A stretch of 20,179 bases of DNA from a virus (IMGVR_UViG_3300042691_006129:1-20179); one strand, 5' to 3'; counted from the stretch's first letter, positions 77 to 19,473 are shown. The notes: generated from the sequence alone by a model not told the origin. Translations and numbers: made by a program.

Positions 77-262
77 TTACTTCTTTGTTGAACCACCTTT
101 TTTCATCATAGCTTTACCATACTTAGCCATACCACGGTTAGCAGCATTACCAGTTTGGTTCTTAGAAACTACAATTCCTTTTTTAGCTTTAGGAGCTACA
201 GTAGCTTTACCGGCATTCTTAATACCTTTACCACCTACTCCTACTTTACCTGTTGATTTCAT
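77..262 (-). CDS. Small Lys/Gly-rich basic protein with C-terminal KKGGSTKK tail
   Basis: A 61-residue, strongly basic, low-complexity protein rich in Lys, Gly and Ala, with no acidic residues and no hydrophobic segment. It is unlikely to form a normal globular fold and could contact DNA or another acidic surface (inference). Its last residues, KKGGSTKK, share the Gly-Gly-Ser plus Lys ending found in four other small proteins of this island. The start is preceded by an A-rich leader (AAAAACAAACAACC before ATG) of the same type as the other genes here, and the stop is 6 bases before the next start. No known family is recognised. Confidence 0.78.
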   Translation of the reverse strand: MKSTGKVGVGGKGIKNAGKATVAPKAKKGIVVSKNQTGNAANRGMAKYGKAMMKKGGSTKK

Positions 263-295
263 GGTTGTTTGTTTTTATCAGTTATACTTAGTTAA

Positions 296-544
296 TTAAC
301 ACTTCCACTTTCTGAGAGCTTTATTAATCCTAGAGTTAGGATCATTAGCTGTCTTAGAACTTGTAAGTTTCTTTTTCATACCAGACATACGAGCACAGAA
401 AGATTTTTTTCTTGATCCCCCCTCTGGTTGAGGAGCTTTAAGATTACCTCCTGTTTCTCTATTATAAGAAGCACGCCCTTTAGCGTTAAGTCCTCCACTA
501 GGAGACTTACCTTCTTTACGTTGCCATGCTGGTGATTTCCCCAT
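296..544 (-). CDS. Small basic protein, DUF6321-like
   Basis: An 82-residue basic protein with two parts: a Gly/Ser/Lys-rich N-terminal half (residues 1-45) and a more conserved-looking C-terminal half with KSFCARMSGMKKK around 47-59 and SRINKALRKWKC at the end. From memory this C-terminal half matches a domain of unknown function found in many phages of aquatic bacteria (I believe Pfam DUF6321); a profile search would settle it. Two Cys (one at the last residue) and an Arg/Lys-rich helix are visible. It lies 5 bases after the preceding gene. Its function is unknown; size, charge and position point to a virion-associated or DNA-contacting protein. Confidence 0.85.
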   Translation of the reverse strand: MGKSPAWQRKEGKSPSGGLNAKGRASYNRETGGNLKAPQPEGGSRKKSFCARMSGMKKKLTSSKTANDPNSRINKALRKWKC

Positions 545-549
545 AGATT

Positions 550-849
550 TTAAAACTGTGATTGTGATCTTTTATTAAACTTCTTTATAATTTTACGCGA
601 ACTCTTGTTTCCCTTATACTCATCAGGACCACCTGTAGGACGAACATATATATTTGGTATACCAACAGGTGCTTCTCTAGTGTCAAACATTAAACCATCC
701 TTCCAAAGATCTTTTGATGGTGTTTTAGTTGTATCACTTTTATTAAGTCCCTTTTGTGCTTTAACTAGATTATCGTTAGCTTTAATCATAGATTTTTTTC
801 TAGCAGCAGCGTTGTCGTTGAAGTACTTAACTGGGTTAGAGTTTTTCAT
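550..849 (-). CDS. Small basic protein of unknown function
   Basis: A 99-residue Lys/Asn-rich protein. Residues 1-45 are mostly Lys, Ala and Asn and probably helical; a short central stretch (about 53-75, with APVGIPNIYVRPTGG) is more hydrophobic and could form a small folded or docking element; the end is again basic (KIIKKFNKRSQSQF). Unlike five of its neighbours it has no GGS-Lys tail. The stop is 5 bases from the next start and the gene follows the 63-residue gene by one base, so it is part of the same tight array. No family is recognised. Confidence 0.78.
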   Translation of the reverse strand: MKNSNPVKYFNDNAAARKKSMIKANDNLVKAQKGLNKSDTTKTPSKDLWKDGLMFDTREAPVGIPNIYVRPTGGPDEYKGNKSSRKIIKKFNKRSQSQF

Positions 850-850
850 A

Positions 851-1042
851 TTACTTTTTCTTTTTTACAGATCCACCTTTTTTAAATACACCTCTACCTT
901 TAAGAACATCTGCATAACTAGTTTTACCATCGTTATTTAGATCAGGAAAAGTAGAGCCACCAGCTTTCATCTTTTTAGGTTTCTTGCCTGCAGCTTTCAT
1001 AGACATCGCTATAGCTGCTTGTTGTTTCGCGTTCTTTGCCAT
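851..1042 (-). CDS. Small basic protein with one dockerin/EF-hand-like loop and GGSVKKKK tail
   Basis: A 63-residue protein. Residues 1-30 are Ala/Lys/Met-rich and helical. Residues 34-45 spell DLNNDGKTSYAD, with Asp34, Asn36, Asp38-Gly39 and Asp45 in the 1-3-5-6-12 spacing of a dockerin or EF-hand calcium-binding loop. It is followed by VLKGRGV and the basic tail KKGGSVKKKK. A second GGS (28-30) precedes the loop. Dockerins normally have two loops; here there is one, so if it binds calcium it may do so alone or as a dimer (inference). I recall similar loop-containing small proteins in marine phages. It sits 1 base from the downstream gene and 5 from the upstream one. Confidence 0.82.
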   Translation of the reverse strand: MAKNAKQQAAIAMSMKAAGKKPKKMKAGGSTFPDLNNDGKTSYADVLKGRGVFKKGGSVKKKK

Positions 1043-1047
1043 GGTTA

Positions 1048-1356
1048 TTACTTCTTACGTTTAATAGAACCACCTCTTTTGTTACTAGGAAGAGGAATAT
1101 ACTTTACTGGTGTAGAACCATACTTGGTCTCTTTTCCTTTTCTTGCATCAGAAGGTGATCGCTTTTTAAGATCTACTAATTTTTTTACATCAGCATTTGC
1201 TTTATTATAAGCTGCTGTGTTTTGAAAGTTAGCTGCTAATGTACTATCTGCAACCGCTCTTTTTACTTCCGCCGCTCTTTTTATTGGATCAGACTTTCGA
1301 TCAGTATTTCCTCCAGATCCATACTTTTTAACTGATTTTTTAATTGTTTTTTTCAT
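1048..1356 (-). CDS. Small basic helical protein with GGSIKRKK tail
   Basis: A 102-residue protein with a very basic N terminus (MKKTIKKSVKKYGSGG), a central helical part (about 28-65, with AAEVKRAVADSTLAANFQN and repeated Ala/Lys/Asp), then a Lys/Ser-rich region and the tail NKRGGSIKRKK. The heptad-like Ala/Val/Leu spacing in the middle could support a short coiled coil. A second Gly-Gly pair occurs near residue 15. The ending is shared with four other genes here that otherwise differ in sequence. No known family is recognised. Confidence 0.8.
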   Translation of the reverse strand: MKKTIKKSVKKYGSGGNTDRKSDPIKRAAEVKRAVADSTLAANFQNTAAYNKANADVKKLVDLKKRSPSDARKGKETKYGSTPVKYIPLPSNKRGGSIKRKK

Positions 1357-1369
1357 GGTTATTTATTTT

Positions 1370-1582
1370 TTATTTTTTAGTTTTTAAAGATCCTCCCATG
1401 ATAGACTTCTCAAGATCCATCACAGATTTTTTTACATCTCTCATAAGAGATGGGTTTTTACGAATTTCATCCGCACGTTTTAAAGTAGAGATAGCACTTT
1501 CTATCTCCCACTTTCTTTCTTGTGACTTGTTAGGTCTCATGACGCTGATGAATCCACTGTTAGATGATTTTTTCTTTGCCAT
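1370..1582 (-). CDS. Small helical protein with GGSLKTKK tail
   Basis: A 70-residue protein. After a short basic leader (MAKKKSSNSGF) comes a predicted helical body (about 18-60) containing SQERKWEIESAISTLKRADE and LMRDVKKSVMDLEKSIM, with alternating charges typical of an amphipathic helical hairpin. The C terminus is MGGSLKTKK, the same tail type as in its neighbours. The upstream leader reads AACAAACCAACAACT before ATG, an A-rich start region without Shine-Dalgarno. Similar short helical proteins occur, as far as I recall, in other phages next to the 49- and 41-residue genes that follow here. Function unknown. Confidence 0.82.
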   Translation of the reverse strand: MAKKKSSNSGFISVMRPNKSQERKWEIESAISTLKRADEIRKNPSLMRDVKKSVMDLEKSIMGGSLKTKK

Positions 1583-1599
1583 AGTTGTTGGTTTGTTAA

Positions 1600-1749
1600 T
1601 TACTTTTTCTTAGCGGTCTTAGCAGAGTTAATAAAATCTTTTTTACTAGGTGCACCCTTGGTTCCAGGTTTACGCATCTTTTCACCAGATCCCGCAGCTA
1701 TACGTTTACGTTTAGCGTGGATGTTAGCATATAGTCCAGGTTTCGCCAT
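1600..1749 (-). CDS. 49-residue conserved-looking basic protein (MAKPGLYANIHAKRKRI...)
   Basis: Translating from the ATG at 1749 gives 49 residues, starting MAKPGLYANIHAKRKRIAAG, then a SGEKMRKPGTKGAPSKKDF stretch, and ending in SAKTAKKK before TAA. The gene is too short for common length cut-offs, but the case for it is strong: it fills an otherwise empty gap, its start shares one base with the stop of the upstream gene (TAATG), and the sequence is one I recall as a short, strikingly conserved phage protein in marine and crAss-like genomes. It is Lys/Arg-rich with conserved-looking Gly-Pro turns and has no GGS tail. Function is unknown. Confidence 0.88.
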   Translation of the reverse strand: MAKPGLYANIHAKRKRIAAGSGEKMRKPGTKGAPSKKDFINSAKTAKKK

Positions 1750-1874
1750 TATCTTCCTTGTTTATTATAACGTTTAACATTCTTATCCTTAGGTCCTAAA
1801 CGTTTCTTAGCTTTACCTACCTTTCTTTTACCAAAGGTTAGTTTAGTACTAGATGTTTTACTCTGTTTAGCCAT
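1749..1874 (-). CDS. 41-residue highly basic protein
   Basis: Translating from the ATG at 1874 gives 41 residues beginning MAKQSKTSSTKLTFGKRK, then VGKAKKRLGPKDKNV and KRYNKQGR, ending in TAA. About a third of the residues are Lys or Arg and there is only one acidic residue. The stop overlaps the next start by one base (TAATG), which suggests translational coupling with the 49-residue gene. Like that gene it resembles a short phage protein I remember from marine phages. The composition resembles ribosomal-protein tails or DNA-condensing peptides, so nucleic-acid contact is a reasonable guess but unproven. Confidence 0.83.
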   Translation of the reverse strand: MAKQSKTSSTKLTFGKRKVGKAKKRLGPKDKNVKRYNKQGR

Positions 1875-1876
1875 TA

Positions 1877-2107
1877 TTATTTACACTTTAAAGATCCCCC
1901 TTTTTTTAATGAAGGTGCTGGTTTTCCTGTTCTAGGTTGTTGCTCTCTAGGAGCTTTGTAGTTTTCATAGTTACTTTTTACACCTGATACATAGAAACCA
2001 TCTCCATCTTTTTGGGTAGGTTCAGCCATATTTCTACGACCATCATTAAGACGACGAATAATCTGGTTATTCATCATGTCTACTGATCTAAAAGATTTAT
2101 TCTTCAT
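1877..2107 (-). CDS. Small basic protein with GGSLKCK tail
   Basis: A 76-residue protein: an N-terminal helical, Asn/Arg-rich part (MMNNQIIRRLNDGRRNM at 11-27), a central stretch with DGDGFYVSGV (34-43) that may form a short hairpin, a Pro/Arg-rich linker and the tail LKKGGSLKCK. Cys75 lies in the tail. The stop is 2 bases before the start of the 41-residue gene and the start is 5 bases after the repeat protein. No family is recognised. The tail groups it with the genes at 77-262, 851-1042, 1048-1356 and 1370-1582. Confidence 0.8.
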   Translation of the reverse strand: MKNKSFRSVDMMNNQIIRRLNDGRRNMAEPTQKDGDGFYVSGVKSNYENYKAPREQQPRTGKPAPSLKKGGSLKCK

Positions 2108-2112
2108 GATTA

Positions 2113-2322
2113 CTAGCTTTTAGGATCTACATTAGCTGATGCGTTAGTACCTCCTTTGTAACGTGTAGGATTCTTTTCTACTTGTACAGAAGCGTTTTTA
2201 CCACCTGTATAACGAGTAGGGTTTCTTTCAGCGTAAACTGGAGAATTCTTACCGCCAGTATACCGAGTAGGGTTCTTCACTACTTCCGGATACTTGTTTG
2301 CATTTTTCATTATTCCTGCCAT
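2113..2322 (-). CDS. Small protein made of three 17-residue NPTRY-x-GG repeats
   Basis: A 69-residue protein. After a 15-residue lead come three tandem 17-residue units that start KNPTRYTGGKN, RNPTRYTGGKN and KNPTRYKGGTN; the invariant core is N-P-T-R-Y-x-G-G, followed by a more variable six-residue part. Residues 67-69 (PKS) close the protein, which ends in TAG. A second Met at residue 5 is a possible alternative start. The repeats look like an extended peptide with three equal docking sites rather than a globular domain. Given its place just after the capsid gene and the 338-residue protein, binding to a repeated virion surface or to the hexon/penton lattice is an attractive inference. I recognise no family. 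Confidence 0.8.
   Translation of the reverse strand: MAGIMKNANKYPEVVKNPTRYTGGKNSPVYAERNPTRYTGGKNASVQVEKNPTRYKGGTNASANVDPKS
2125..2277 (-). repeat. Three tandem 51-bp coding repeats
   Basis: On the minus strand the units are 2277-2227, 2226-2176 and 2175-2125, each encoding 17 residues in phase. The N-P-T-R-Y-x-G-G part is kept in all three at protein level, while third codon positions and the last residues differ. That pattern fits old internal duplication under protein-level selection rather than a recent slippage array. Confidence 0.85.
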
Positions 2323-2334
2323 GACTATATAGTT

Positions 2335-3351
2335 TTAAGAGTTCCAATTCTTTTCCACTTTCTTTGTCAGGTCTACTAGAATAGTCTCATTAAGTGGGTT
2401 TCTGAGATATTCTGCTACGTCTGAAGGATTACGTCCTAGTAGCGTTAGTGTTTCCTGGTGATAGATAAATCCATCAACTTTTGTTACAATAAACTTATAG
2501 AATGTTGCATCCTTAATAATAGACTTTATTTTTAAAGTTTCCATATCAAGGTTACACGCATCCAAGAAGGATTGTGCTGCACGCTTTTTATTACTTTCGA
2601 CACCTTCACCATTAATGTAACGATCCATGTTATCATAGATCACATCATTTGGTGTAGACTTCTTGTACTGTATACTGTTCGCATCCAGCGCTTTAGCAAC
2701 ATAAAATAGTTTATTACTATTCTTATCAAAGAGCTTCTGTAACTCAGCAAGAGCTTTATTACGTAGTTTTTTAATCTCAGTTTTAGTAGATGCTGTATCC
2801 TCAAACTTATCAAGATAAAACTTGGTAGGTACAGGACGAGATTTAGCATCTTCATAACTCCTAGCTACCATACTGAATCCTCCAGCTTCGATAGCATATA
2901 ACTTTATAAGATCATATGGATCTTTTAAAGGATCCAGTATTAAATCATCATTAGTGCATCTGAGTGTTATCTTACCCCAAAACTCATCATTGTTTGGTTT
3001 TAGTAAGCTAACTTTACTCCAGAACTCAGGATCATTAGGATCTAAAACGTTAGCTGCTAACTCTTTTTCAAGTTGAGCAACAGTCTTACGAATATCCTTA
3101 ATTCTAGCTTCTCTTAGATCTGGAGGTAAAAGTTTTATCTCAGGTGCGAACTCATTGAGTCCGGTAAGATATTGTTTAATACCATTCTTCTCTAAACAAG
3201 CTAGTTGCTCTTCCTGAGCTACACCATCGAAAAGAACAAGACCGTACTGTTCAAGACCCATATTCGGACGACTAGCGTCAAAGTATGGTTTAATTCTAAT
3301 AGGACCCCTTTTGTTTACTTGATGGGGTTCAATCATTGTAAATGTATCCAT
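2335..3351 (-). CDS. Putative virion protein downstream of the capsid gene
   Basis: A 338-residue soluble protein with no signal peptide or membrane segment. Residues about 70-100 are helical and charged (a likely coiled coil), followed by a short duplicated motif, DPEFWSKVSLLKPNNDEFWGKITL-like, in which FWSKVSLL and FWGKITL repeat about 16 residues apart (near 109 and 125). The second half (about 190-320) is mostly alpha-helical. It is the first gene after the capsid protein and a strong hairpin, and its leader is A-rich (AACCAACAAAAA before ATG). A head-completion, head-neck or auxiliary capsid role fits the position, but no family is recognised and the function is inference. Confidence 0.75.
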   Translation of the reverse strand: MDTFTMIEPHQVNKRGPIRIKPYFDASRPNMGLEQYGLVLFDGVAQEEQLACLEKNGIKQYLTGLNEFAPEIKLLPPDLREARIKDIRKTVAQLEKELAANVLDPNDPEFWSKVSLLKPNNDEFWGKITLRCTNDDLILDPLKDPYDLIKLYAIEAGGFSMVARSYEDAKSRPVPTKFYLDKFEDTASTKTEIKKLRNKALAELQKLFDKNSNKLFYVAKALDANSIQYKKSTPNDVIYDNMDRYINGEGVESNKKRAAQSFLDACNLDMETLKIKSIIKDATFYKFIVTKVDGFIYHQETLTLLGRNPSDVAEYLRNPLNETILVDLTKKVEKNWNS

Positions 3352-3442: not shown

Positions 3443-5068
3443 TTAGAATGATCCACCTGTAATTGGGTTTCTCATTACAATCTTCAACACTTTGGTTGGA
3501 TCTTTTACCCAGATAGCTGGCATAGTCTGAGTCATGTACACACGGTAACCGTTGAACTGACCAGATGATGCAAACCCCTGACTACGACCCATATAATCCA
3601 TAGTACCATTCTGATACCACCACTTCAACTGGTTATCCCAGCTAAGTTTCAACATAAAGATGTTATCGTTAGTGTTATCAGTGATATCAAAGATAATGAA
3701 ACTGTATGATGACAATGGGAATCCATCGATCAATGGGTTTTCAATATCGTTTGTATGGATGTTATCAAACGCAGGGTTCAATACGAACTGTACGTTAGCT
3801 AAGAACGGAATCACATAAGATGTGTACGCGAATCCAAAACCAAGGTTCATACCTTGACCAGAGATTGCTCCGATACCGTTGTTAGCAGCAGCTTGGATAA
3901 CCAAACCTGAGTTCGCAGCTTCACGCTTGATAGCTTCGTTAACCATACGCATACCTCCCATACCAGTCTGAACAATAAGCTGACGCTTAGGATCTGGACC
4001 TTGGAATTCAACACGACCGGCGTAGAAGTTATAAAGTTCAGCGCGGAATAACTCAAGAGAGAATCCTGACTTATTGTACACACGCTTGAAAGAGTTATCA
4101 AGCTGCTTCCAAAGACCTACTGACATACGGATATCATCTGGTCCATCTTGCTTGATTCTTCCTCCATGACCCCACATTAAGTAAGTTTCGATATCTGTAG
4201 CAATCTTTGTTAAGTGTGCTGCTTCCATCGAGGTCAAGAAAGTACGTGTAAGAGTACCATTAGATACTGCACGTTTTACATAATCTTTACCCATTTTACC
4301 AACCATGTCCTCAATCTTAGTGATTGCTGGATCCATGTTCTGGTCAAAGTTTCTCCAGATTTCAGTTACAGGAACTGTACCATCTGCGTTCATACCACCT
4401 TTCAACATCATATCTGCACGAGATGAAATTGAATAGTGAACGTGAGCTTCAGAACCTCCTACGAAGTTATAGAACTCACGGAACCCAGCTTTAGTCTGGA
4501 TATCGGAGAATCTTTCTCCATACTCACCACGAGCAGAACCTTTTCTGAAGAAACGTGTCTGTGCGGTTAAGTATACGTTATCTAAGAAACGGTAGTTATC
4601 ATTGTTCACTAACTGCACAGTGTAGATGAAACCATCTCCCATAGGAAGAATATCATCAGCAGTAATGTACAATTCCGCACCGTTGTACTTATCATAAGTA
4701 ATGATATCACCGTGTCCAAACTCACGCTTGTTAAGCTTGATTTTGAAGGTAGTACCGTCAATACCTTTATTGGTATTTCCTGGTTCAATGTCCTCGATGA
4801 TATAAGGAAGTTCCTGTGATACAGGAGTCTGCCACTTATATTCACCACGTTGATTGTCTACCATGATGATGTTTTTACCTCCAAAGCTAGATAGCTGGTA
4901 TAGAGGCATTTCTACTTTCTGAGCCATCGCCCAGATGTCTACCGGACCCAAGTCCATGGGTTCGGCGCTCTTAAGCATATTCACTAAGTGATAACTGTCT
5001 ACATGCGAGCTCGCATTGTATTGGGTATCCCTCAGGAATATACCATTGTTAAAAACTGGAGTTGCCAT
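3443..5068 (-). CDS. Major capsid protein (HK97 fold, crAss-like type)
   Basis: A 541-residue protein, slightly longer than the roughly 490-residue capsid protein of human-gut crAssphage. It begins MATPVFNNGIFLRDTQYNAS and has a composition typical of capsid proteins: long, evenly mixed alpha/beta, no membrane segment, no low-complexity region. Its place right after a scaffold-like gene and portal matches the usual head-gene order, and the sequence overall reads to me as the crAss-like capsid type (recognition from memory). The start is fixed by an unusual A/C-only leader (see the leader entry). It ends ITGGSF, a Gly-Gly-Ser near the C terminus but without the lysines seen in the small genes downstream. 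No separate prohead protease gene is visible in this window. Confidence 0.87.
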   Translation of the reverse strand: MATPVFNNGIFLRDTQYNASSHVDSYHLVNMLKSAEPMDLGPVDIWAMAQKVEMPLYQLSSFGGKNIIMVDNQRGEYKWQTPVSQELPYIIEDIEPGNTNKGIDGTTFKIKLNKREFGHGDIITYDKYNGAELYITADDILPMGDGFIYTVQLVNNDNYRFLDNVYLTAQTRFFRKGSARGEYGERFSDIQTKAGFREFYNFVGGSEAHVHYSISSRADMMLKGGMNADGTVPVTEIWRNFDQNMDPAITKIEDMVGKMGKDYVKRAVSNGTLTRTFLTSMEAAHLTKIATDIETYLMWGHGGRIKQDGPDDIRMSVGLWKQLDNSFKRVYNKSGFSLELFRAELYNFYAGRVEFQGPDPKRQLIVQTGMGGMRMVNEAIKREAANSGLVIQAAANNGIGAISGQGMNLGFGFAYTSYVIPFLANVQFVLNPAFDNIHTNDIENPLIDGFPLSSYSFIIFDITDNTNDNIFMLKLSWDNQLKWWYQNGTMDYMGRSQGFASSGQFNGYRVYMTQTMPAIWVKDPTKVLKIVMRNPITGGSF

Positions 5069-5107: not shown

Positions 5108-6382
5108 CTACCGTTTAAAAAAGTTATTTCCACTATTTTGTCTGGAGATTGTTTTAGTCTTACGTGGGCTAGGTGCATCATCTGTATCTCCCATGGTAGT
5201 AGATGATTGGCGACTTTGCTGTTCAGTTTTCAACATTCTCACTGTTTTCTCTGTAGTTTCCTTAACACTACCTTCTTTAATCTTAGACTTGTATCCGTCA
5301 GGATCAGCTAATAACCAAAGCGCTTCCGCGATAAGATCGTGTCTTGGTTGTACATATTGATATTTTTCTAGAAGATGACCTAACAAGTTTGTAGGACGTC
5401 CTGACATAGATGGGTAATTAGGTTGTACTAGACCTTGGAACAAGAGACCTTGTATCTTCTTGTCTATCTTTACTCCATTTAATTCACCAGGTTCAAGAGT
5501 TTTGTAGATGTTATCTGTGTATGCTCTAGCTGCGTGTTCTTGTTGTTTACGCATCTCTTCTTGTTGTTGAAGTCTTCTAGCAACAATCTGTTCCTGCATC
5601 GCATCTAACTTAGGTTTAAATTTTTTAGCTTTAGAACCTAGTTCTTCACGGTCTCTCCAACTATCAATCTCTTCTTCAATCTCTTCAGGTGTACCAAAAT
5701 TGGTAGCTGAGAGATAGTTACGAACGATAGCTTCCTGATCGTCAGCATCCTCTACACTTAACTCTCTCATTTCTTGTACTTGACTTAAGGTTCTAAAAAG
5801 ACCTTTAAGATCAGTACCTCCATCAGCTACATACTTAGCAGCGTATTGAAGTTCATGAGGTAGAGAATCAAAGAATTCCATTGGAGTTTCCTCACGTATG
5901 GTTTTTTCTTTTTCTGCTAGATTAGCTTCAAGAAGTTCTTGGAAATCTTGACTAGAATATTTCTCTAAAGGTTTATCTTCATCAAAAGGTAGAATAACTC
6001 CTTTTTCAATAAGTTTAGAGAATGTTTCTACAAGACCGCTCTTGTCTACACGAGGACGACCAGATTTTCCAGCATCTGCTTCTTCTTCTAAGATATCATT
6101 AAGTTGTTGAGTAACTTCTTGTATCGCTGCTTCTGTTTCTTTCACAGAAGTTGTAGTAGAAGGTGTAGTAGACACTACTGGTTTACTTGTGGTTTCTTCT
6201 TCATCTTTTTCAAGGAACGATGTATCTACGGTGTCTTTTGAAAAGATTGATGGTTTTTTAGCCTCTGCGCTTGGTACCATCACACTCTCAGCACCCGGTA
6301 TTCCTAAGATCTCGTTAAGTGTATCATCACTTACTTCAACCTCTTGTACCGTGGTTGTCTGGGTTGGTTTGTTATCTTCCAT
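5108..6382 (-). CDS. Putative capsid scaffold protein
   Basis: A 424-residue, Glu/Asp-rich, hydrophilic protein between portal and capsid genes. Residues 1-100 are acidic and Thr/Ser/Val-rich with little predicted fold; 130-170 and 215-290 are strongly helical, with a Gln/Arg/Glu coiled-coil stretch around 250-285 (RRLQQQEEMRKQQEHAARA); the C terminus is basic (about 390-424, with KTKTISRQNS). An acidic coiled-coil body with a basic end that can touch the capsid shell is the usual make-up of scaffolds, and the position is the usual one too. No protease domain is evident. It ends in TAG, with an in-frame TAA four codons further on. Confidence 0.7.
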   Translation of the reverse strand: MEDNKPTQTTTVQEVEVSDDTLNEILGIPGAESVMVPSAEAKKPSIFSKDTVDTSFLEKDEEETTSKPVVSTTPSTTTSVKETEAAIQEVTQQLNDILEEEADAGKSGRPRVDKSGLVETFSKLIEKGVILPFDEDKPLEKYSSQDFQELLEANLAEKEKTIREETPMEFFDSLPHELQYAAKYVADGGTDLKGLFRTLSQVQEMRELSVEDADDQEAIVRNYLSATNFGTPEEIEEEIDSWRDREELGSKAKKFKPKLDAMQEQIVARRLQQQEEMRKQQEHAARAYTDNIYKTLEPGELNGVKIDKKIQGLLFQGLVQPNYPSMSGRPTNLLGHLLEKYQYVQPRHDLIAEALWLLADPDGYKSKIKEGSVKETTEKTVRMLKTEQQSRQSSTTMGDTDDAPSPRKTKTISRQNSGNNFFKR

Positions 6383-6497: not shown

Positions 6498-9266
6498 TCA
6501 CTTACTTTTTTTATCCTTAGGTTCTTTCTTATCGTAACGATTTTTGTTTACTCTAGCGACCTCAAGTTGTTTATTAGCAATATCCTGTTGAACTCTAAGT
6601 TTATCTCTTTGAATGTTTAGTTTTTCTCTATCATTATCAACTTTAGCTGATTGTTTTTCTCTTTGTAAAGACATGGTTTCCTGATACTGTTCAGTCTCCT
6701 GTATCTTTTCAAGAGCATCAACATAATCACTCTGTAAATTTTGGTTAACGTCTTGCATCGCACCGTATCCTGCAGCACGTATTTCCGCAACAAGGATATC
6801 CTTACGACGGTTCTTTTCAGCTTCAGCAGCTTGAGAATCCAACATCATCTTACGTTCTTCAGTACGTTGTTGCATTTCCATCTCCTTCATCTGTTGCTCA
6901 TGTTGCATCTGTTCCTGACGTTGTTTAGTAGCTTTCTGTTCAGTTTGTTTTAAAATATTTTGTAGTTCAGATAATGACTCAGACTGGATAATTCCACCAA
7001 GATCATAGATAGATGCTCCTGAAGTATTGTTGTTTACAGCTAGTTGCTTCATCTGTTCTATTACAGAACGATGATTAGCTTTAGTTGTACAAAAAACATT
7101 GAGCTCACGTAACAACATATCTGTTCCATTTATTTGGAAATTAACTTGTTCGTCTTTACTTGTAATATACTGTAATCTTAAAGACGGTTTAGTTGAATGA
7201 TAATATTGTGCAAGATCCGTTCTCATCTGGTGTACTCTAGGCATCAGATAATCAGAGTGTTGAATAAAGTAATTTTCCGTCTGGGCGTAAGAACCAGTTA
7301 CGGCTTGTTCTATACCTTTAGCAGTATCGGTTTGACCAATCTGTTGACCCAGACGTTGAGGTGTTATCCCTATCACCTCAAATGCTTGTTGTTTAAAGTA
7401 GTTAGCTAACTGTATCCTAGACATCATCCTTTGAGTCTGCTCTAGGTTAAGTGTTTGAAAATGTTGAAAGTTAAGCGCGTTTTCAGTGTTTGTAATACTG
7501 GTATCTAGAGGAAGGATTTGGAAGTTCTTCATCGCCGCGTAAGCTTTAGCGTAGTTTCCTTTACCCCAATCCTCACCTAAAGAATGTTTAGGTAAAGTAT
7601 TCTGGTCTATAAGAATAACTGTTCCTAATTCATCAACAAGAATATCTGCTATCTGATTGTTGACAATATTATATCCAATCTGGAAAGGTTTCATAAGATC
7701 TACTAGAGCTGTAGATCTAGTATTTCTATCTGAAAATACAGCACCTTCTACAGGAAGTTTACATCCGTACAAAGAGTTATCTCCTTTAAACTGAAACTTC
7801 ACAGGTCCTGGTCTATTACTATTTATACCAATGTACATTGGGTTGATACCACCCGGGTTCTTCATTCCCCACCAGCTAGGACGGTTAGGTCCAATTTTTA
7901 CACCACCCCATACTTCATTAATCCATACCCAGTCAATATGTTCACCAAATACAAGAGTATCTTTTGTTTTGTTTTTTATAAAAGCGTTGTTGTATATAGG
8001 TTTATCTGTAATAGTAAACGACTCATCTACAATATCTGTAATGACTTCGCCGGTCTCAGTAATCTTTGTTAGATGTCCAATCTTACGTTGTGTTTTCCAG
8101 TAGATTGTTGTAACACGGAGCATGAATGCCATACCCATATCATAATAATCTTCTGACTCACCCATAATCCAGTTAATAATATCTCCACCATTGTAGATAA
8201 AGTTATCATACATACTAGTGAATTGACGATACTGGAGACTAGGTTGATTTACGTTCCACTCATGAGATCTTGTAGCATCGTAATAAGATCCGTCGTTTTG
8301 GTATCCCTGTAGAGGATAACCAGAAGATCTTACAGGATAGATAGTCTCGAGAGCTTCCATCTGTTCTGTAGTAAGTAAGTAACCGTACTTATCAATGATA
8401 TCAGCTACGGTCATCATATCAAACTTACCTACAAAGTTACCTTGTGATATGTACCTGCTGTCAGGAGACTTGTGGTAGAAGGTTAATACGGGGTTCCAAA
8501 GTTCTACATCGTAATCATCTTCTAGCATCCTGAAATGCCAGAACTCACGATCGGTAATAAGACTATCTCTAAAACCACGCTCCTCAAGTTCATCCATCTT
8601 AAATCTTTCCTCATCTACTTTAGTTTGGTGCATAGCCCACTGTTCCATCATACTTCTGTAATCCTTTGTAAAAAAGGACTCGATTTCTGGTAAAGATTTA
8701 AGAGCCTCAGGAGACATCTCCTGTTGCATCTTTTCTTGAAACTCTGGGTCATTAGGATCAGCACCCATTTCCATCATTCTAGTCATCACCTTTTTCTCAG
8801 CTTCTGCTAGAAGAACACTTTCAACTTGTAAACGTTTTTGTTCAAGTAACTCATTGTAAGAAAAATCATCTACAGCTCTAAAGGTAATTCTACTATTACG
8901 TTTAGCAAATTCTGTACACAATACATTAATAACGTTTGGTATTATAGGATAGAACTTTAGTTCTAGTGCACTATAATCTTCAGCAGCAAGCGTCTCTACT
9001 ATATCTCTGTAGTCATTATCTTGCTCGATGATATAGTCACCTTTATCAATAATACCTTTTGCAAGCTTGTAGTTTTTCATTAAACGACGAGCGTTTCTAC
9101 GAACCTGTTTAAGTCCTTGCCACTCTAACCAGTCCAGATTCCACGCTGACCACTCGTCATCTTTCTCTTCTCTTGGTAAGAACTGTATGGGTTGGGTTAT
9201 TGAACCCATGCGGTTTACTTCCGCTTTTTTTCCACTTTTTAGTTGTAGCGCATTGAATACTTGCAT
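6498..9266 (-). CDS. Portal protein (crAss-like, long form)
   Basis: A 922-residue protein placed directly after TerL, with one base between them. Residues about 30-700 form the body expected of a dodecameric portal: an alternating alpha/beta N-terminal half, and a central helical part rich in Gln and Asn (about 590-690, with MSRIQLANYFKQQAFEVIG and RLGQQIGQTDTAKGIEQA) that resembles the clip/stem region of large portals. Residues about 755-905 are an almost continuous Gln/Glu/Lys/Met coiled coil, ending in a Lys-rich tail. crAss-like portals are long, so the size fits; the coiled coil is a likely crown or barrel extension into the capsid. The function is inferred from position, size and remembered similarity. 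Confidence 0.85.
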   Translation of the reverse strand: MQVFNALQLKSGKKAEVNRMGSITQPIQFLPREEKDDEWSAWNLDWLEWQGLKQVRRNARRLMKNYKLAKGIIDKGDYIIEQDNDYRDIVETLAAEDYSALELKFYPIIPNVINVLCTEFAKRNSRITFRAVDDFSYNELLEQKRLQVESVLLAEAEKKVMTRMMEMGADPNDPEFQEKMQQEMSPEALKSLPEIESFFTKDYRSMMEQWAMHQTKVDEERFKMDELEERGFRDSLITDREFWHFRMLEDDYDVELWNPVLTFYHKSPDSRYISQGNFVGKFDMMTVADIIDKYGYLLTTEQMEALETIYPVRSSGYPLQGYQNDGSYYDATRSHEWNVNQPSLQYRQFTSMYDNFIYNGGDIINWIMGESEDYYDMGMAFMLRVTTIYWKTQRKIGHLTKITETGEVITDIVDESFTITDKPIYNNAFIKNKTKDTLVFGEHIDWVWINEVWGGVKIGPNRPSWWGMKNPGGINPMYIGINSNRPGPVKFQFKGDNSLYGCKLPVEGAVFSDRNTRSTALVDLMKPFQIGYNIVNNQIADILVDELGTVILIDQNTLPKHSLGEDWGKGNYAKAYAAMKNFQILPLDTSITNTENALNFQHFQTLNLEQTQRMMSRIQLANYFKQQAFEVIGITPQRLGQQIGQTDTAKGIEQAVTGSYAQTENYFIQHSDYLMPRVHQMRTDLAQYYHSTKPSLRLQYITSKDEQVNFQINGTDMLLRELNVFCTTKANHRSVIEQMKQLAVNNNTSGASIYDLGGIIQSESLSELQNILKQTEQKATKQRQEQMQHEQQMKEMEMQQRTEERKMMLDSQAAEAEKNRRKDILVAEIRAAGYGAMQDVNQNLQSDYVDALEKIQETEQYQETMSLQREKQSAKVDNDREKLNIQRDKLRVQQDIANKQLEVARVNKNRYDKKEPKDKKSK

Positions 9267-9267
9267 G

Positions 9268-11475
9268 TTATCTTATATTCTTAAAAGGTCTCTTGACCAT
9301 TTGGTTTGTTTTATTATTATAACCTCTTCCCATGTGACGGAAAGGTGTATTAGACAATTTATACAAATTTTCTGACTTTTGCAAATGTTTATTGTCTACT
9401 CTCTCAACAATCTTCTTGTATCCACGATTAGACTGTTGAATCTTAGCAAAAGCTACAAGCGCTGAAAAAGCGACTAATCTATCTACGTTTAAATCATCTT
9501 GGTACTGAACCATCTCCTGTAGTATCATCTCATCAGGGATACGTTCTACACCGTATATTGTTTTTACTATTGTACCATCTTCTTTAGTTTCGTGATCAAG
9601 TTCTTCTTTAAGGAATTCGATAGCGTAGCTAAGAAGGTGGGAACGGAATAATGTACCTGTGTTTCTCCAACCATATTCTTGATATACGTTATTATTTGAT
9701 CCTAAATCTTTAAGAAATAATATCTGGTTTTTAGGAACTAGGTATCTTTGTTTCTTCCGGTTGATCATATGTTGGATAAATAAGGATACGTTATTCTCAA
9801 CAATAGTCCATGCATTATACCACTCTATAATCATTTCTAAACGCTCGTGGGTTTTATTTATATCATCAAAACGACCACACCAGCTTGCTACTATTCTATC
9901 ATGTTCTATATGTGTAGTTGCTTCTGTACCATTAATCTTAGTTACTTCTACTGCATTCTTATAAACTACAATAGAACATAATGAATCAGACGTTGTTGTT
10001 TTACCTTCAGCTATAGGATCGACTGATGCATAGTATGTCCCAAACTCTGGATTAAGATTGGGTCTTTCGTAAACAACGACTACACCACTCTTATCCTCTA
10101 GTCCCATATCCACAGGGAATTGTTTAATAGGTAACTTGTTACTTAACTCAGATATTATTTTACCCTCCGCGTTACGACTTAAATCTATAAATTCATAAGA
10201 ATACTGTTTATCTTCAATCCTTTTTAACTGAGCTCGTACTAGATGCTGGGGAAATTTGGATACGGATCTATTAGCAAATGCTTCAGCTATATTTCTAGGA
10301 TGCTGAGATATACGTAGTTGATACTTCTCAGGGGATAGTTCTTTCTTCCATTTCTCAAACTTTATGTTAAGAGCTTTAAGTGCTTCTTCTACTTTAGAGT
10401 TACCATACTCATCTATATACGGAGGCATGGACCATTGCTCTGGTATAAACAACCCACTCTCACCAAGTGTTCCTTTCTCATCTAATAAATCGGTATACAC
10501 AGGATAAATACTATTAGCTGTAGGTTTTTCTATCATAGACTTAAGTGGTAAACACTGATCTAAATCACCTACAGAACCAGCAGCTATAAACATACCCGTA
10601 GTAATATCCCCTGACTGTAGAGCTGGAAAAAGATATTCTACAGTCTCTCCCATCTTAGGTGCGATACCCGCTTCTTCATGAAAAAAGTATGTACATGGTC
10701 CACCAACACCTGATGTAGCATCTTTCTCAAAAGTTACACCCTGTAGTGTTCCTTTGAGACCTTTCATTACTTTTCTATTAGATCCTGGTAAAGATGTTTC
10801 AATCTGTTGTTGCCACATAAACATACCACCTGGATTGAAAGGTCTATACCAAGCTGTGTGTTCGTTTAAGAAAGACCTATATTCATTTAAGAATTTCCAT
10901 GTTCCTTTTTCATTAATATAATCTTTTAGACTAGCACCAATTTTTAGTATAGGTGTTTCTTCAAACCAGAGTGTATTAATAAGTTTTGCGGCGTGAAAAT
11001 ACGAAGAGGCTATCTGACGTTTCTTGAGTATAGCACAATGTTGATAGTGAAGTTCAGCTAGTAACTCATATAAAGCCATGTGATACTGAACATCACGTAC
11101 CTGTGGAAAATCAAACTTCTTTTGTTCCTTATCATTAATAGGAAGAAAGTTTAACCACATGTAATAGTCACGTGTAATGTACCAAGATTTGTTTCCGTTA
11201 CGAAATAATACACCTCTTCTACACTTAAGCTTTTCTCCATCCCAATAATGTATAAAATCCTTACTACCGACGGGAGCGGAGCAGTAGAACTTATTGTTCC
11301 GAAATCTACGGGCTTCTGAGTTAAATACATATGAGATGTCATCGAATTCATATTTACCAGGTTCTTTAAATAAACTTAAAATTAATAATCTAAAATCGTC
11401 TTTAGTTTGGAAACTAGTGGATGACCAATTTCCATTTTCATACGTAGGTATTTCTATGTAAGGTGTGTTACTCAT
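9268..11475 (-). CDS. terL: Terminase large subunit (packaging ATPase-nuclease)
   Basis: A 735-residue protein. Residues 151-158 (KKRQIASS) sit where Walker A is expected, but the usual GK[ST] is missing. TYFFHEEAG (262-270) is the Walker B region with His-Glu-Glu instead of Asp-Glu, and MFIAAGSVGD (295-304) is the coupling motif. The nuclease half has the three acidic sites of the RNase H-like fold: Asp486 in ASVDP, Glu560 in TIVENN and Asp660/661/665 in YQDDLNVDR. The protein cuts the concatemer and drives DNA through the portal. It starts at an ATGA overlap with the preceding gene and ends one base before the portal gene. The nuclease motifs make this the safest call in the window. Confidence 0.93.
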   Translation of the reverse strand: MSNTPYIEIPTYENGNWSSTSFQTKDDFRLLILSLFKEPGKYEFDDISYVFNSEARRFRNNKFYCSAPVGSKDFIHYWDGEKLKCRRGVLFRNGNKSWYITRDYYMWLNFLPINDKEQKKFDFPQVRDVQYHMALYELLAELHYQHCAILKKRQIASSYFHAAKLINTLWFEETPILKIGASLKDYINEKGTWKFLNEYRSFLNEHTAWYRPFNPGGMFMWQQQIETSLPGSNRKVMKGLKGTLQGVTFEKDATSGVGGPCTYFFHEEAGIAPKMGETVEYLFPALQSGDITTGMFIAAGSVGDLDQCLPLKSMIEKPTANSIYPVYTDLLDEKGTLGESGLFIPEQWSMPPYIDEYGNSKVEEALKALNIKFEKWKKELSPEKYQLRISQHPRNIAEAFANRSVSKFPQHLVRAQLKRIEDKQYSYEFIDLSRNAEGKIISELSNKLPIKQFPVDMGLEDKSGVVVVYERPNLNPEFGTYYASVDPIAEGKTTTSDSLCSIVVYKNAVEVTKINGTEATTHIEHDRIVASWCGRFDDINKTHERLEMIIEWYNAWTIVENNVSLFIQHMINRKKQRYLVPKNQILFLKDLGSNNNVYQEYGWRNTGTLFRSHLLSYAIEFLKEELDHETKEDGTIVKTIYGVERIPDEMILQEMVQYQDDLNVDRLVAFSALVAFAKIQQSNRGYKKIVERVDNKHLQKSENLYKLSNTPFRHMGRGYNNKTNQMVKRPFKNIR

Positions 11476-15978: not shown

Positions 15979-16254
15979 TTATCTTCTTACAGATGTAATA
16001 ATCATATCTCTTATATCATGGAGTGCTTTAGTGTTATTATCTATAGTATCTTTAAGAATCTTCTGATCATTTCTAATGTAATCATTCAACTCTTTTTGTA
16101 AGGCTGTTACATCAGCTTTTAATCTATCTTCTGATGCAAGTTGTCTTTTTAATAAATACCATAGTGCGCCACCTAGCGCTAGAGTTACTACTCCTAAAGC
16201 TCCGTACTGAGTCAAAGTATCAAATACTCCAAAGGATGCATTTAGTATTGTCAT
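15979..16254 (-). CDS. Holin-like small membrane protein with coiled coil
   Basis: A 91-residue protein with one transmembrane segment (about 17-35, QYGALGVVTLALGGALWYLL), then a basic stop (KRQ) and a coiled coil (about 40-85, EDRLKADVTALQKELNDYI onward). One membrane helix plus a cytoplasmic or periplasmic coiled coil resembles XhlA-type or other class III holin-associated proteins. It lies 3 bases after its paralogue at 16258-16464, which shares the QYGALG, ALG, W and DRL positions. A holin or accessory role in timing lysis is inferred. Confidence 0.8.
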   Translation of the reverse strand: MTILNASFGVFDTLTQYGALGVVTLALGGALWYLLKRQLASEDRLKADVTALQKELNDYIRNDQKILKDTIDNNTKALHDIRDMIITSVRR

Positions 16255-16257
16255 GAT

Positions 16258-16464
16258 TTATTTTTTTATAGATTGTTCTAATAACATTTTTTCTAGTTCC
16301 TCCACTCTTTTTTGTAGTCTGTCTTTTTCTTCAAGGTTTTTATTCCACATTTTCCAGACTACAAAACCTAAAGCTATAACTACAATACCTAAAGCTCCAT
16401 ACTGTACAAGACCTTCATACGCTCCTAAACCAGGATTAGTATGTCCAACATTAGTAGTATCCAT
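16258..16464 (-). CDS. Holin-like paralogue of the neighbouring 91-residue protein
   Basis: A 68-residue protein with a transmembrane segment (about 21-40, QYGALGIVVIALGFVVWKMW) followed by a coiled-coil tail (KDRLQKRVEELEKMLLEQ). The QYGALG, VxxALG, W and DRL residues match the 91-residue protein in order, so the two arose by tandem duplication. The N terminus here is a Gly/Asn/Thr-rich lead instead of the other's hydrophobic one, and the coiled coil is shorter. Its ATG shares one base with the stop of the upstream gene (TAATG). A pair of related membrane peptides could act as a holin and its antagonist, or as hetero-oligomer partners; unproven. Confidence 0.8.
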   Translation of the reverse strand: MDTTNVGHTNPGLGAYEGLVQYGALGIVVIALGFVVWKMWNKNLEEKDRLQKRVEELEKMLLEQSIKK

Positions 16465-16750: not shown

Positions 16751-16999
16751 TTACTTTACTTTTAAATATTTATAATAAATAGTATCCCCTATTCTAGCAT
16801 GAGGTGAACAAGGTACAGTATCTCCATTATTTAAAAGAGCTTTGTATCTAGGATTTATTTCCTGATGGATGTTAAAAGGATATTCTTCCCAAACATCGGT
16901 TATTACATAACTCTCTTTTTCAGATACCGTAGTTGTACATCCTGAAAGAACTACTAATAATATAAAAAAAAATTTTGTATTATTTAGTAAGCCAACCAT
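16751..16999 (-). CDS. Small lipoprotein, possible outer-membrane spanin-like
   Basis: An 82-residue protein with a clear lipoprotein signal: a short N terminus, hydrophobic FFFILLVVL and lipobox LSGC (18-21), so Cys21 would be lipid-anchored. The mature part is about 60 residues with mixed strands and turns (NGDTVPCSPHARIGDTIYYK). Its ATG lies 20 bases inside the endolysin gene in another frame. A small lipoprotein beside an endolysin and holin suggests an o-spanin or lysis accessory, but the mature part is not Pro-rich as classic Rz1 proteins are. Confidence 0.8.
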   Translation of the reverse strand: MVGLLNNTKFFFILLVVLSGCTTTVSEKESYVITDVWEEYPFNIHQEINPRYKALLNNGDTVPCSPHARIGDTIYYKYLKVK

Positions 17000-17594
17000 A
17001 AAATCTTTTAGTAAGTGATATTCTTTCTTCTAAACCATGGGTACCACCGTTTATTCTACGAGTCATAGCTAATATAGTAGCATCGTCTACACCCTTATCA
17101 GCTATATTCCATAACTTATTATTATCAAAAAAGAACATAGCGGATTCAAATGCGTAGTCTGTAGCTACTAAATCAGGATTAGTCATAACTTCTGGTTTGT
17201 TAAGATAACTCGCAAACGCTTGATAATTAGACTTTCCCGTAAGTTGGAGAGCACCTCTACCGCGGTATTTCCAACCGTCACCGGAAGCCTCATCACCATT
17301 ACCCATACGATTAGCGTATACTCTATTAGCTATCTTCATAGGTTGTCTAGCGTAACTATCTTCTAGTTTGTCAGGAAAGTACTTACCAAAGATCTTATCT
17401 AGACCTGCGGCTGAGTAGTTAAGGTTTTCACTAAATATTGTAAACCCACCAGACTCATGGGAGGTTTGTCCAAAAAAGTGTGCAGCACGCTCAGGTGATA
17501 ATTTATAGTAAGCGGCTGCTGCTTTTAGTGTTCCAGGTCCGAATGCTCCATCAGCTTTGGTACCTATTTTTTCTTGTAGTTTTATTAGACTCAT
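16980..17594 (-). CDS. Endolysin, glycoside hydrolase family 19
   Basis: A 204-residue protein. It has the GH19 lysozyme/chitinase core found in many phage endolysins: HFFGQTSHESGGF (39-51) with Glu47 as the likely catalytic acid, SENLNYSAAGL (55-65) with Glu56 as the possible second acid, YANRMGNGDEASGDGWKYRG (93-112) and RGALQLTGK (113-121). The N terminus (GTKADGAFGPGTLKAAAAYY) resembles the last part of a peptidoglycan-binding domain but is too short for a full one. No export signal is present, so access to peptidoglycan would depend on a holin. It cleaves the glycan strand of host peptidoglycan at the end of infection. Confidence 0.93.
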   Translation of the reverse strand: MSLIKLQEKIGTKADGAFGPGTLKAAAAYYKLSPERAAHFFGQTSHESGGFTIFSENLNYSAAGLDKIFGKYFPDKLEDSYARQPMKIANRVYANRMGNGDEASGDGWKYRGRGALQLTGKSNYQAFASYLNKPEVMTNPDLVATDYAFESAMFFFDNNKLWNIADKGVDDATILAMTRRINGGTHGLEERISLTKRFYGWLTK

Positions 17595-17844: not shown

Positions 17845-19473
17845 TTAAACTTGTCTTCCAAGAGCTGTTTGTAGAGTTTGAACCGCAGTCCTAAAATTAC
17901 TTACTTCAGTATCATTAAGTCCATCACCTATTGATATAAACCTATACTGTCTATCAGAGTATTGAACTATAGAGCCATTACTATTTAAAGCACCTATAAT
18001 CATACCTTGAGTTGGTAATGTATTTGGGTTAGCATTAGTATCAGTTGCTAAAACACTTCCATCTTTATATAACTTATGGCTTGTACTTGTTGTTCTACTA
18101 CCAACATAGAAACCTCTTGCATCTGCGTTTGCTGCTGTTATTTGATTTGTAGATAAATTATATGCACATGAATAAGATAAATTTCCTGTGTATTTTGCAC
18201 TCAATAACATGATTGGAACTAATGTACCTCCAACACCAACACCCATTTCTATTTTATTACCTGCTGCGGTATCTGTTCCAATATAATATGAAATATGAGT
18301 ATTGTTTGTAGTTAATACAGATGAAGGGATTAAGTTTGGATTTGCGGTAGTATTACTTCCGTTACCCTGCATACCTGTAGCACTATGTACCCAACCACCT
18401 GCAAATGTTATTCTGTAAGCACTATTAGTATCTTGTGGATTGACTAAGTTAAACTTTTGTTGAGTAGCAGTCGTACCCATAATAGGATATACAGCCTTCA
18501 TCTTAGACCATATACCATACCCCTTTAAGCTAGTTACAAATGTATCTAAAGCTGTTTGTTCTGTTGTGTTTGTTATTTGAGTACTAAATAAGTATGCGTT
18601 AGTTTCATTGTTGTAGTTTCTATTATAATAGAATGATTGCAAAGGATTAATACTCCTACCCAAAGCAACCTGATACTTCTCAACTATTTGATAAAATAAC
18701 TGTGATTCAACATCTGTAAGACCGCTACCAATTGATGCAAAAGCACATTGTCTATTAGAATAAACTCTACCTCCAACTAAATTTGAATTTCTTGCACCTA
18801 CCCAAACATTCAAATTTATAGCACTTGATGGTAAATTTGTATCAGTTGCTAATATAGCACCATTTTTATATAACTTAGTTGAAGTACTTGTTGTTCTTGA
18901 AGTTAAAAATAAACCTATTGGTATTTGTCCTGTTGTTGTGGGAAAAACACTTTGATTATTTGAATAATAAGTAATTCCAGCATAATTAAATCCAATTGTG
19001 TAAAAACGGTCAGGAGATAAATTTACTGCTCCAATTTCCCAATAATTTCCTGAAGAATTAGTCCTTGAATAATATGATAAGTGCGTACTATTTACATTTT
19101 GTCCAACTGTATTTTGATTGAAAAAACTATCAGCATAAGCATTTGTTCCATTAGGAGTAGCACCTGTTGAACTATGAGTCCATCCACCTACAAAACTTAA
19201 CCTAAATGCTGCATTAGTATCTAAAGGGTTTTTTAAGTTGAATTTATGTTGAGTTGCTGTTGTACCAATAATAGGGTATAAAGCATTAAACTTAGTCCAT
19301 ATATTGGCACCTTTTAAATCTAATACCAACTCATTAAGAGTAGTAGCATCACCACCACTTATTCCTGTAGCAGTAATAAATGCCTGCGCATCAGGATCGT
19401 ATGTACTTACAGGAGCAACCGCACCTCTAAAACCTACACCTACAAACTTATCTATGTTTATAGTAGTAGACAT
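17845..19473 (-). CDS. Fibre/adhesin with two tandem LamG-like domains
   Basis: A 542-residue protein rich in Asn, Thr, Ser and Gly with little charge. After a short N-terminal lead (1-28, FVGVGFRGAVAP), domain 1 (about 29-274) and domain 2 (about 290-542) are clear repeats: both hold a GIW/NIW-x-K...YPI-GTTATQxKFNL-NP-DTN block, an FxGGWxHSxTG block, an SRTTSTSxKLYKxG-LATDTN block and a closing LGR. The fold is probably a concanavalin A/LamG-like beta-sandwich, a known adhesion module in phage receptor-binding proteins. The protein lacks a signal peptide. It is probably a virion appendage that binds host surface glycans or other polymers; the exact partner cannot be told from sequence. Confidence 0.85.
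   Translation of the reverse strand: MSTTINIDKFVGVGFRGAVAPVSTYDPDAQAFITATGISGGDATTLNELVLDLKGANIWTKFNALYPIIGTTATQHKFNLKNPLDTNAAFRLSFVGGWTHSSTGATPNGTNAYADSFFNQNTVGQNVNSTHLSYYSRTNSSGNYWEIGAVNLSPDRFYTIGFNYAGITYYSNNQSVFPTTTGQIPIGLFLTSRTTSTSTKLYKNGAILATDTNLPSSAINLNVWVGARNSNLVGGRVYSNRQCAFASIGSGLTDVESQLFYQIVEKYQVALGRSINPLQSFYYNRNYNNETNAYLFSTQITNTTEQTALDTFVTSLKGYGIWSKMKAVYPIMGTTATQQKFNLVNPQDTNSAYRITFAGGWVHSATGMQGNGSNTTANPNLIPSSVLTTNNTHISYYIGTDTAAGNKIEMGVGVGGTLVPIMLLSAKYTGNLSYSCAYNLSTNQITAANADARGFYVGSRTTSTSHKLYKDGSVLATDTNANPNTLPTQGMIIGALNSNGSIVQYSDRQYRFISIGDGLNDTEVSNFRTAVQTLQTALGRQV
17848..19389 (-). repeat. Internal duplication of the LamG-like domain
   Basis: Domain 1 is encoded at about 19389-18652 and domain 2 at about 18606-17848. 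Shared blocks occur in the same order with similar spacing, but the segments between them (residues 115-185 versus 375-455) have diverged strongly. That is the pattern expected if a common scaffold is kept while surface loops change binding specificity. Confidence 0.85.

Follow-up and report, generated by a model that had tools for sequence, protein, structure and literature searches.

The internal proteins of phage T4 are diverse and have the capsid-targeting sequence (CTS) alone in common, and among their residues only lysines contact the phosphates of the DNA (PMC3012670). In crassviruses, the cargo protein gp45 of crAss001 is present in virions by both cryo-EM and mass spectrometry (MS), and the portal C terminus of the same phage forms a long C-terminal barrel (PMC10172136). 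In the cyanophage S-CREM2, ORF137 and ORF160 were both detected in the virion proteome by MS (PMC10665884, Table 3); the authors warn of possible co-purification of some non-structural proteins (PMC10665884). Literature searches found nothing on the KKGGSxKxK tail described here or on the gene block in which it occurs, while DUF5872, a domain with members in that block, figured in one algal-virus paper; no virion proteomics turned up for the clade of the phage studied here.

The stretch of DNA analyzed here (hereafter the window) is a 20,179-base fragment of an environmental crAss-like phage, as indicated by the profile matches of its terminase large subunit (TerL), portal and major capsid protein (MCP). 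These genes follow the Crassvirales order TerL, portal, crassvirus MCP, the MCP matches the Crass_capsid profile with an E value of 1.4e-32, and all the genes considered lie on the minus strand (Table 1). Ten tiny genes (77-2322) form a block downstream of the MCP and of the 338-aa protein in the gp33 position; every one encodes a basic protein (net charge +8 to +21), and five of the proteins have tails of the KKGGSxKxK type. The original prediction, that five small proteins share the C-terminal tail GGS-x-K-x-K, was correct about the five open reading frames and where they lie; four of the tails fit that formula exactly, while the protein at 77-262 ends in GGSTKK, in which the spacer is absent.

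Table 1. Head genes and small-protein block of the window
Feature	Coordinates	Strand	Match or basis
61-aa basic protein, net +16, tail KKGGSTKK at 80-103	77..262	-	
82-aa DUF6321 protein, no tail	296..544	-	PF19846, 2.9e-23
99-aa basic block protein, no tail	550..849	-	
63-aa protein, EF-hand/dockerin-like loop FPDLNNDGKTSYADVLKGRGV, tail KKGGSVKKKK at 854-883	851..1042	-	
102-aa helical basic protein, net +21, tail KRGGSIKRKK at 1051-1080	1048..1356	-	
70-aa helical protein, tail MGGSLKTKK at 1373-1399	1370..1582	-	
49-aa basic protein, no tail	1600..1749	-	phrog_16028 family match
41-aa basic protein, no tail	1749..1874	-	
76-aa Asn/Arg-rich basic protein, tail KKGGSLKCK at 1880-1906	1877..2107	-	
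69-aa protein, three NPTRYxGGxN repeats, no C-terminal tail; first block gene	2113..2322	-	
338-aa protein, crAss001 gp33 position, upstream border of block	2335..3351	-	position
Crassvirus major capsid protein (Crass_capsid), C terminus NPITGGSF	3443..5068	-	
424-aa scaffold-like protein, net -24, C terminus NNFFKR	5108..6382	-	between portal and MCP; charge
Portal protein, Lys-rich C terminus	6498..9266	-	phrog_6547
Terminase large subunit	9268..11475	-	phrog_6681

Several other features of the window deserve mention. The NPTRYxGGxN repeat, present three times in the first block protein, occurs twice in its relatives from L001 and L013. The MCPs of the clade (97 in all) invariably end in NP[IV]TGGS[FL], which has GGS with no lysines, and the scaffold-like protein and its relatives end in a conserved [FM]F[KR]R(F), which may bind the MCP. 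A pair of adjacent genes (15979-16254 and 16258-16464) encodes small single-TM-like proteins with a similar YGALG(V/I)V..AL segment and suggests a tandemly duplicated holin-like gene, close to the endolysin (16980-17594); a 542-aa protein (17845-19473) appears internally duplicated, with two similar halves of ~270 aa each.

The shared tail on small head-locus proteins is real and wider than first reported. From 80 retrieved relatives of the MCP locus, we gathered 348 distinct (dereplicated) block proteins, in which GG peaks at six to nine residues from the C-terminal end. The strict pattern GG[ST]x[KR]x[KR] was observed 26 times within the last 10 residues, against 0.1-0.3 (maximum 2) when either whole proteins or only their last 15 residues were shuffled. 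The consensus of the 81 distinct C-terminal GG ends is K-K-G-G-[S/A/V/T/M]-[V/I/T]-K-x-K-K, that is, the residue following the two glycines is often A, V, T or M in place of S, a K stands two residues past the S position in 68 of the 81 tails, and V, I or T is common just before that K. Placement at the C terminus is not strict, since the motif is also found inside longer proteins, at module junctions. At the other end of the block proteins, a KAQxG-type N-terminal motif is mildly enriched (13 of 69, against 4.5 in shuffles).

A tail profile built without the test genomes was applied to 1,014 predicted proteins from ten large contigs (64-126 kb), where it matched 23 of 69 block proteins but only 3 of 945 others. 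Of these exceptions, one, of 50 aa, is encoded between scaffold and MCP, one upstream of TerL and one in the position of the crAss001 cargo gp45; 24 of the 26 matches lie within 5 kb of the MCP. The predicted enrichment near capsid genes also holds against proteins matched for basicity and size, the tail being present in 20 of 62 block proteins versus 2 of 90 elsewhere (Fisher p 2e-7), with a weaker contrast among the most basic proteins (at least 22% K+R; 11 of 48 versus 1 of 26, p 0.047). The Cellulophaga phages phi4:1 and phi14:2 have neither the block nor the tails, which rules out a tail general to crass-like phages.

The tail reaches well beyond these relatives. In a scan of 2.9 million viral contigs, K-G-G-[ST-like]-x-K-x-K-K-stop was compared with the permuted K-[ST-like]-G-G-x-K-x-K-K-stop: KGGSxKxKK-stop was found in 96 stretches and KSGGxKxKK-stop in 11, a roughly ninefold difference, the degenerate codon WSN used for the ST-like position also letting in R, C and W, with R occupying it in one recurrent family outside crass-like phages. 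Crass-like loci account for 43 of the 96 stretches, mostly between gp33-like and gp35-like genes or at the portal C terminus, and 39 of the other 53 are on contigs with portal (phrog_1216), TerL or MCP (phrog_267) of unrelated phages. In all, head or packaging genes accompany 82 of the 96 on their contigs, which come from crass-like phages and at least two unrelated phage groups. Together with the shuffles and matched controls, this order-permuted scan rules out an artifact of composition. A similar basic block (gp44-gp54) lies between portal and capsid in the cultured Pelagibacter phage HTVC027P; there the motif is internal to the proteins (FKKGGSSKFIQK, YKKGGSVKKKKMKQ) and can therefore also join small modules. 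Among GenBank phages, we found no cultured relatives of the 63-aa protein and one weak match to the LPTEVRNNMGY family.

Across 81 related loci of aquatic crAss-like phages, about 30 kinds of body carry the tail. BLAST of tail-stripped bodies gives 32 clusters, mostly singletons, a count that is approximate because low complexity links the members of the largest cluster. Three of the four window tail proteins listed in this comparison are singletons, in line with the claim that the bodies are mostly dissimilar, and the body clusters also indicate that the tailed proteins are not recent paralogues. The tail is portable, and dispensable for a given body, because it is kept in some orthologue pairs whose bodies are 40-65% identical and absent from the orthologues of the 1370-1582 protein retrieved from other genomes, the window member of this family having it. 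Many other pairs differ in their tails, in part an effect of the regular expression, which does not admit GGGYKN-type ends. Some two in three block proteins have no tail, so that the tail is not required for the role of the block. One of these, the DUF6321 protein, is ~80% identical among cyanomyoviruses, pelagiphages and this crass-like phage, with 533 phage records matching, and DUF6321 modules are far more alike than the phages carrying them.

Three lines of indirect evidence connect the block and its tail to the virion. The packaged gp45 of crAss001 ends in GGTKKAKGGKVRTKKKKGLTYG, a related GG-plus-Lys-rich stretch, and proteins in the gp45 position in several contigs have KKGG[SA] near the C terminus. 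S-CREM2 ORF160 matches DUF5872 by tblastn, and the C terminus of ORF137 is DUF6321-like in a comparison made by eye. The third line is the portal, whose C terminus is Lys-rich in this clade and has a GG motif in 7 of 82 distinct portals. In a single-sequence AlphaFold model of the 1048-1356 protein, which is weak because of its mean pLDDT of 75 and pTM of 0.27, the tail lies outside the helices. As a separate observation, a second conserved C-terminal motif, GG[EKSQ][LIV]E[YF]L, ends large cargo-position proteins in eight contigs (G002:C1:70619-73678, G003:C1:49873-53646, G004:C1:42961-45402, G005:C1:57128-62911, G006:C1:41127-43685, G007:C1:54187-58521, G008:C1:22705-26646 and G012:C1:28846-31353).

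The tail had been proposed to be a packaging signal, a DNA- or capsid-contact peptide, or a Gly-Gly cleavage site for a maturation protease. Packaging or DNA contact is the best supported of these, because the ten block proteins are strongly basic and the scaffold-like protein strongly acidic, and because sister modules and gp45 are virion-borne; Gly-Gly cleavage gained no support. We consider it somewhat probable that the sequence is a basic docking tail of virion-internal proteins, which would join the head via an acidic scaffold core and/or DNA. The block would then encode a rapidly changing repertoire of small basic proteins located inside the virion, and KKGG[S/A/V/T][V/I/T]KxKK would be a portable tail consisting of two glycines, acting as a flexible hinge, followed by a basic strand. 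During assembly, the tail would attach these proteins to the acidic scaffold core, the incoming DNA or both, and so bring them into the head; it would then hold them on the packaged DNA, from where they could be delivered along with the genome. That the tailed proteins are carried in the virion, what the tail binds and the delivery into the host are all inferred. Counting against this reading are the many block proteins with no tail, the tailless orthologues of the 1370-1582 protein, the phages phi4:1 and phi14:2, and a tag that sits at the other end of the protein from the T4 CTS and has no sequence relationship to it. A bolder version, which we put forward tentatively and hold to be doubtful, is that of a dedicated C-terminal capsid-loading peptide used across unrelated aquatic tailed phages, which would bind a head component specifically, the gain of ten residues being enough for phages to load and deliver new small proteins.

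Charge alone could be what is selected, the tail being a flexible basic DNA-binding end comparable to protamine or histone tails, in which any Lys-rich end would serve and GGS would be a convenient spacer. This would agree with the composition of the block proteins, which are basic throughout, with the 1370-1582 orthologues, most of which have a longer basic N terminus and no C-terminal tail, and with the portal C termini of the clade, which are mostly Lys-rich (mean net charge +3.7 over the last 12 residues) and yet have the GG motif in only 7 of 82 distinct portals. We nevertheless regard it as unlikely, given that the order of residues matters (96 stretches versus 11 for the permuted motif), that V/I/T and then K follow GG[S] at specific positions, and that the tail is rare on equally basic proteins elsewhere, if less markedly so in the most basic class. 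Basic tails generally bind nucleic acids, which would also suit a host-directed tail on intracellular effectors, shielding them from C-terminal degradation by the host or anchoring them to the host nucleoid or ribosome, with proximity to the capsid genes reflecting only late co-expression. This is quite improbable, since the tail is nearly absent from the remainder of the genomes and related tails are found on the virion cargo gp45 of crAss001 and on the portal C termini of some relatives.

Adenovirus-type GG-X protease sites are known, and GG-x is common to several dissimilar head-locus proteins and to the TGGSF end of the MCP, as would be expected if a maturation protease cut after Gly-Gly in the assembling head and freed the basic tails, as in adenovirus and T4 core proteins. 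We give this very little credence: no protease was recognized among the window proteins scanned by profile, the crAss001 structure paper is silent on protease and cleavage (PMC10172136), and cutting would remove only 4-7 residues, which leaves unexplained the selection on V/I/T and alternating lysines past the cut. An origin at the nucleotide level, whether by copying of DNA ends or through A-rich 3' ends that act as translation leaders for the next gene, is the least probable of these readings, even though little space separates the genes (median gap 2 nt) and tail genes have a higher A content in their last 21 nt (0.56 versus 0.49). The two Gly codons have a synonymous identity of 0.50 within contigs and 0.486 between them (permutation p 0.43), which agrees with the earlier remark that Gly codons vary and gives no sign of a recent duplication of tail DNA. 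Similarly, the absence of an AAA bias (0.72 of Lys codons in tails versus 0.77 in bodies) and of any dependence of tail frequency on the distance to the next gene disfavors an A-rich leader, and the retention of tails in some diverged orthologues also speaks against a nucleotide-level origin. The sequences show the tail to be maintained at the peptide level.

If the docking-tail reading is true, a ten-residue sequence would predict virion-carried, and probably host-delivered, unknown proteins of abundant environmental phages, and the tail would make a great many uncharacterized phage genes directly accessible to testing. It would also be a C-terminal loading tag for phage heads, versus the N-terminal one of T4.

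Compared with known systems, the tail has several partial counterparts. The DUF6321 and DUF5872 modules have members within the same block, and related modules end S-CREM2 ORF137 and ORF160; unlike the tailed proteins, these are conserved domains whose ends are their own and which lack the KKGGSxKxK tail. The crAss001 cargo proteins (gp45, gp46, gp47, gp49 and gp50) provide a packaged example, gp45, with a GG-plus-Lys-rich end and KKGG[SA] in its counterparts here, but these are proteins of at least 500 residues, whereas the block proteins, presumably also in the virion, are mostly 40-200 aa long. Encapsulin targeting peptides (GSLxIGSLK, GGDLGIRK) are likewise short C-terminal cargo peptides made of Gly, hydrophobic and basic residues, for an HK97-fold shell (PMC10960027). 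However, these use two or three hydrophobic residues that the P-domain of the shell binds, whereas the present tail is mainly lysines, its logo showing one variable aliphatic position plus lysines and no GSLxIGSLK-like hydrophobic C-terminal motif. The original prediction knew of no named system of this kind, which is only partly right because the T4 internal proteins with their shared CTS are a close functional analogue: small, basic, with diverse bodies and one short peptide in common, alongside an acidic scaffold, as with the scaffold-like protein here. The T4 CTS is N-terminal and is removed by the gp21 protease, while KKGGSxKxKK is C-terminal, unrelated in sequence and found in a window where no protease was recognized among the proteins scanned and where packaging of the tailed proteins is a prediction. 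The tail is functionally like T4 internal-protein targeting and is not a member of the T4 CTS family.
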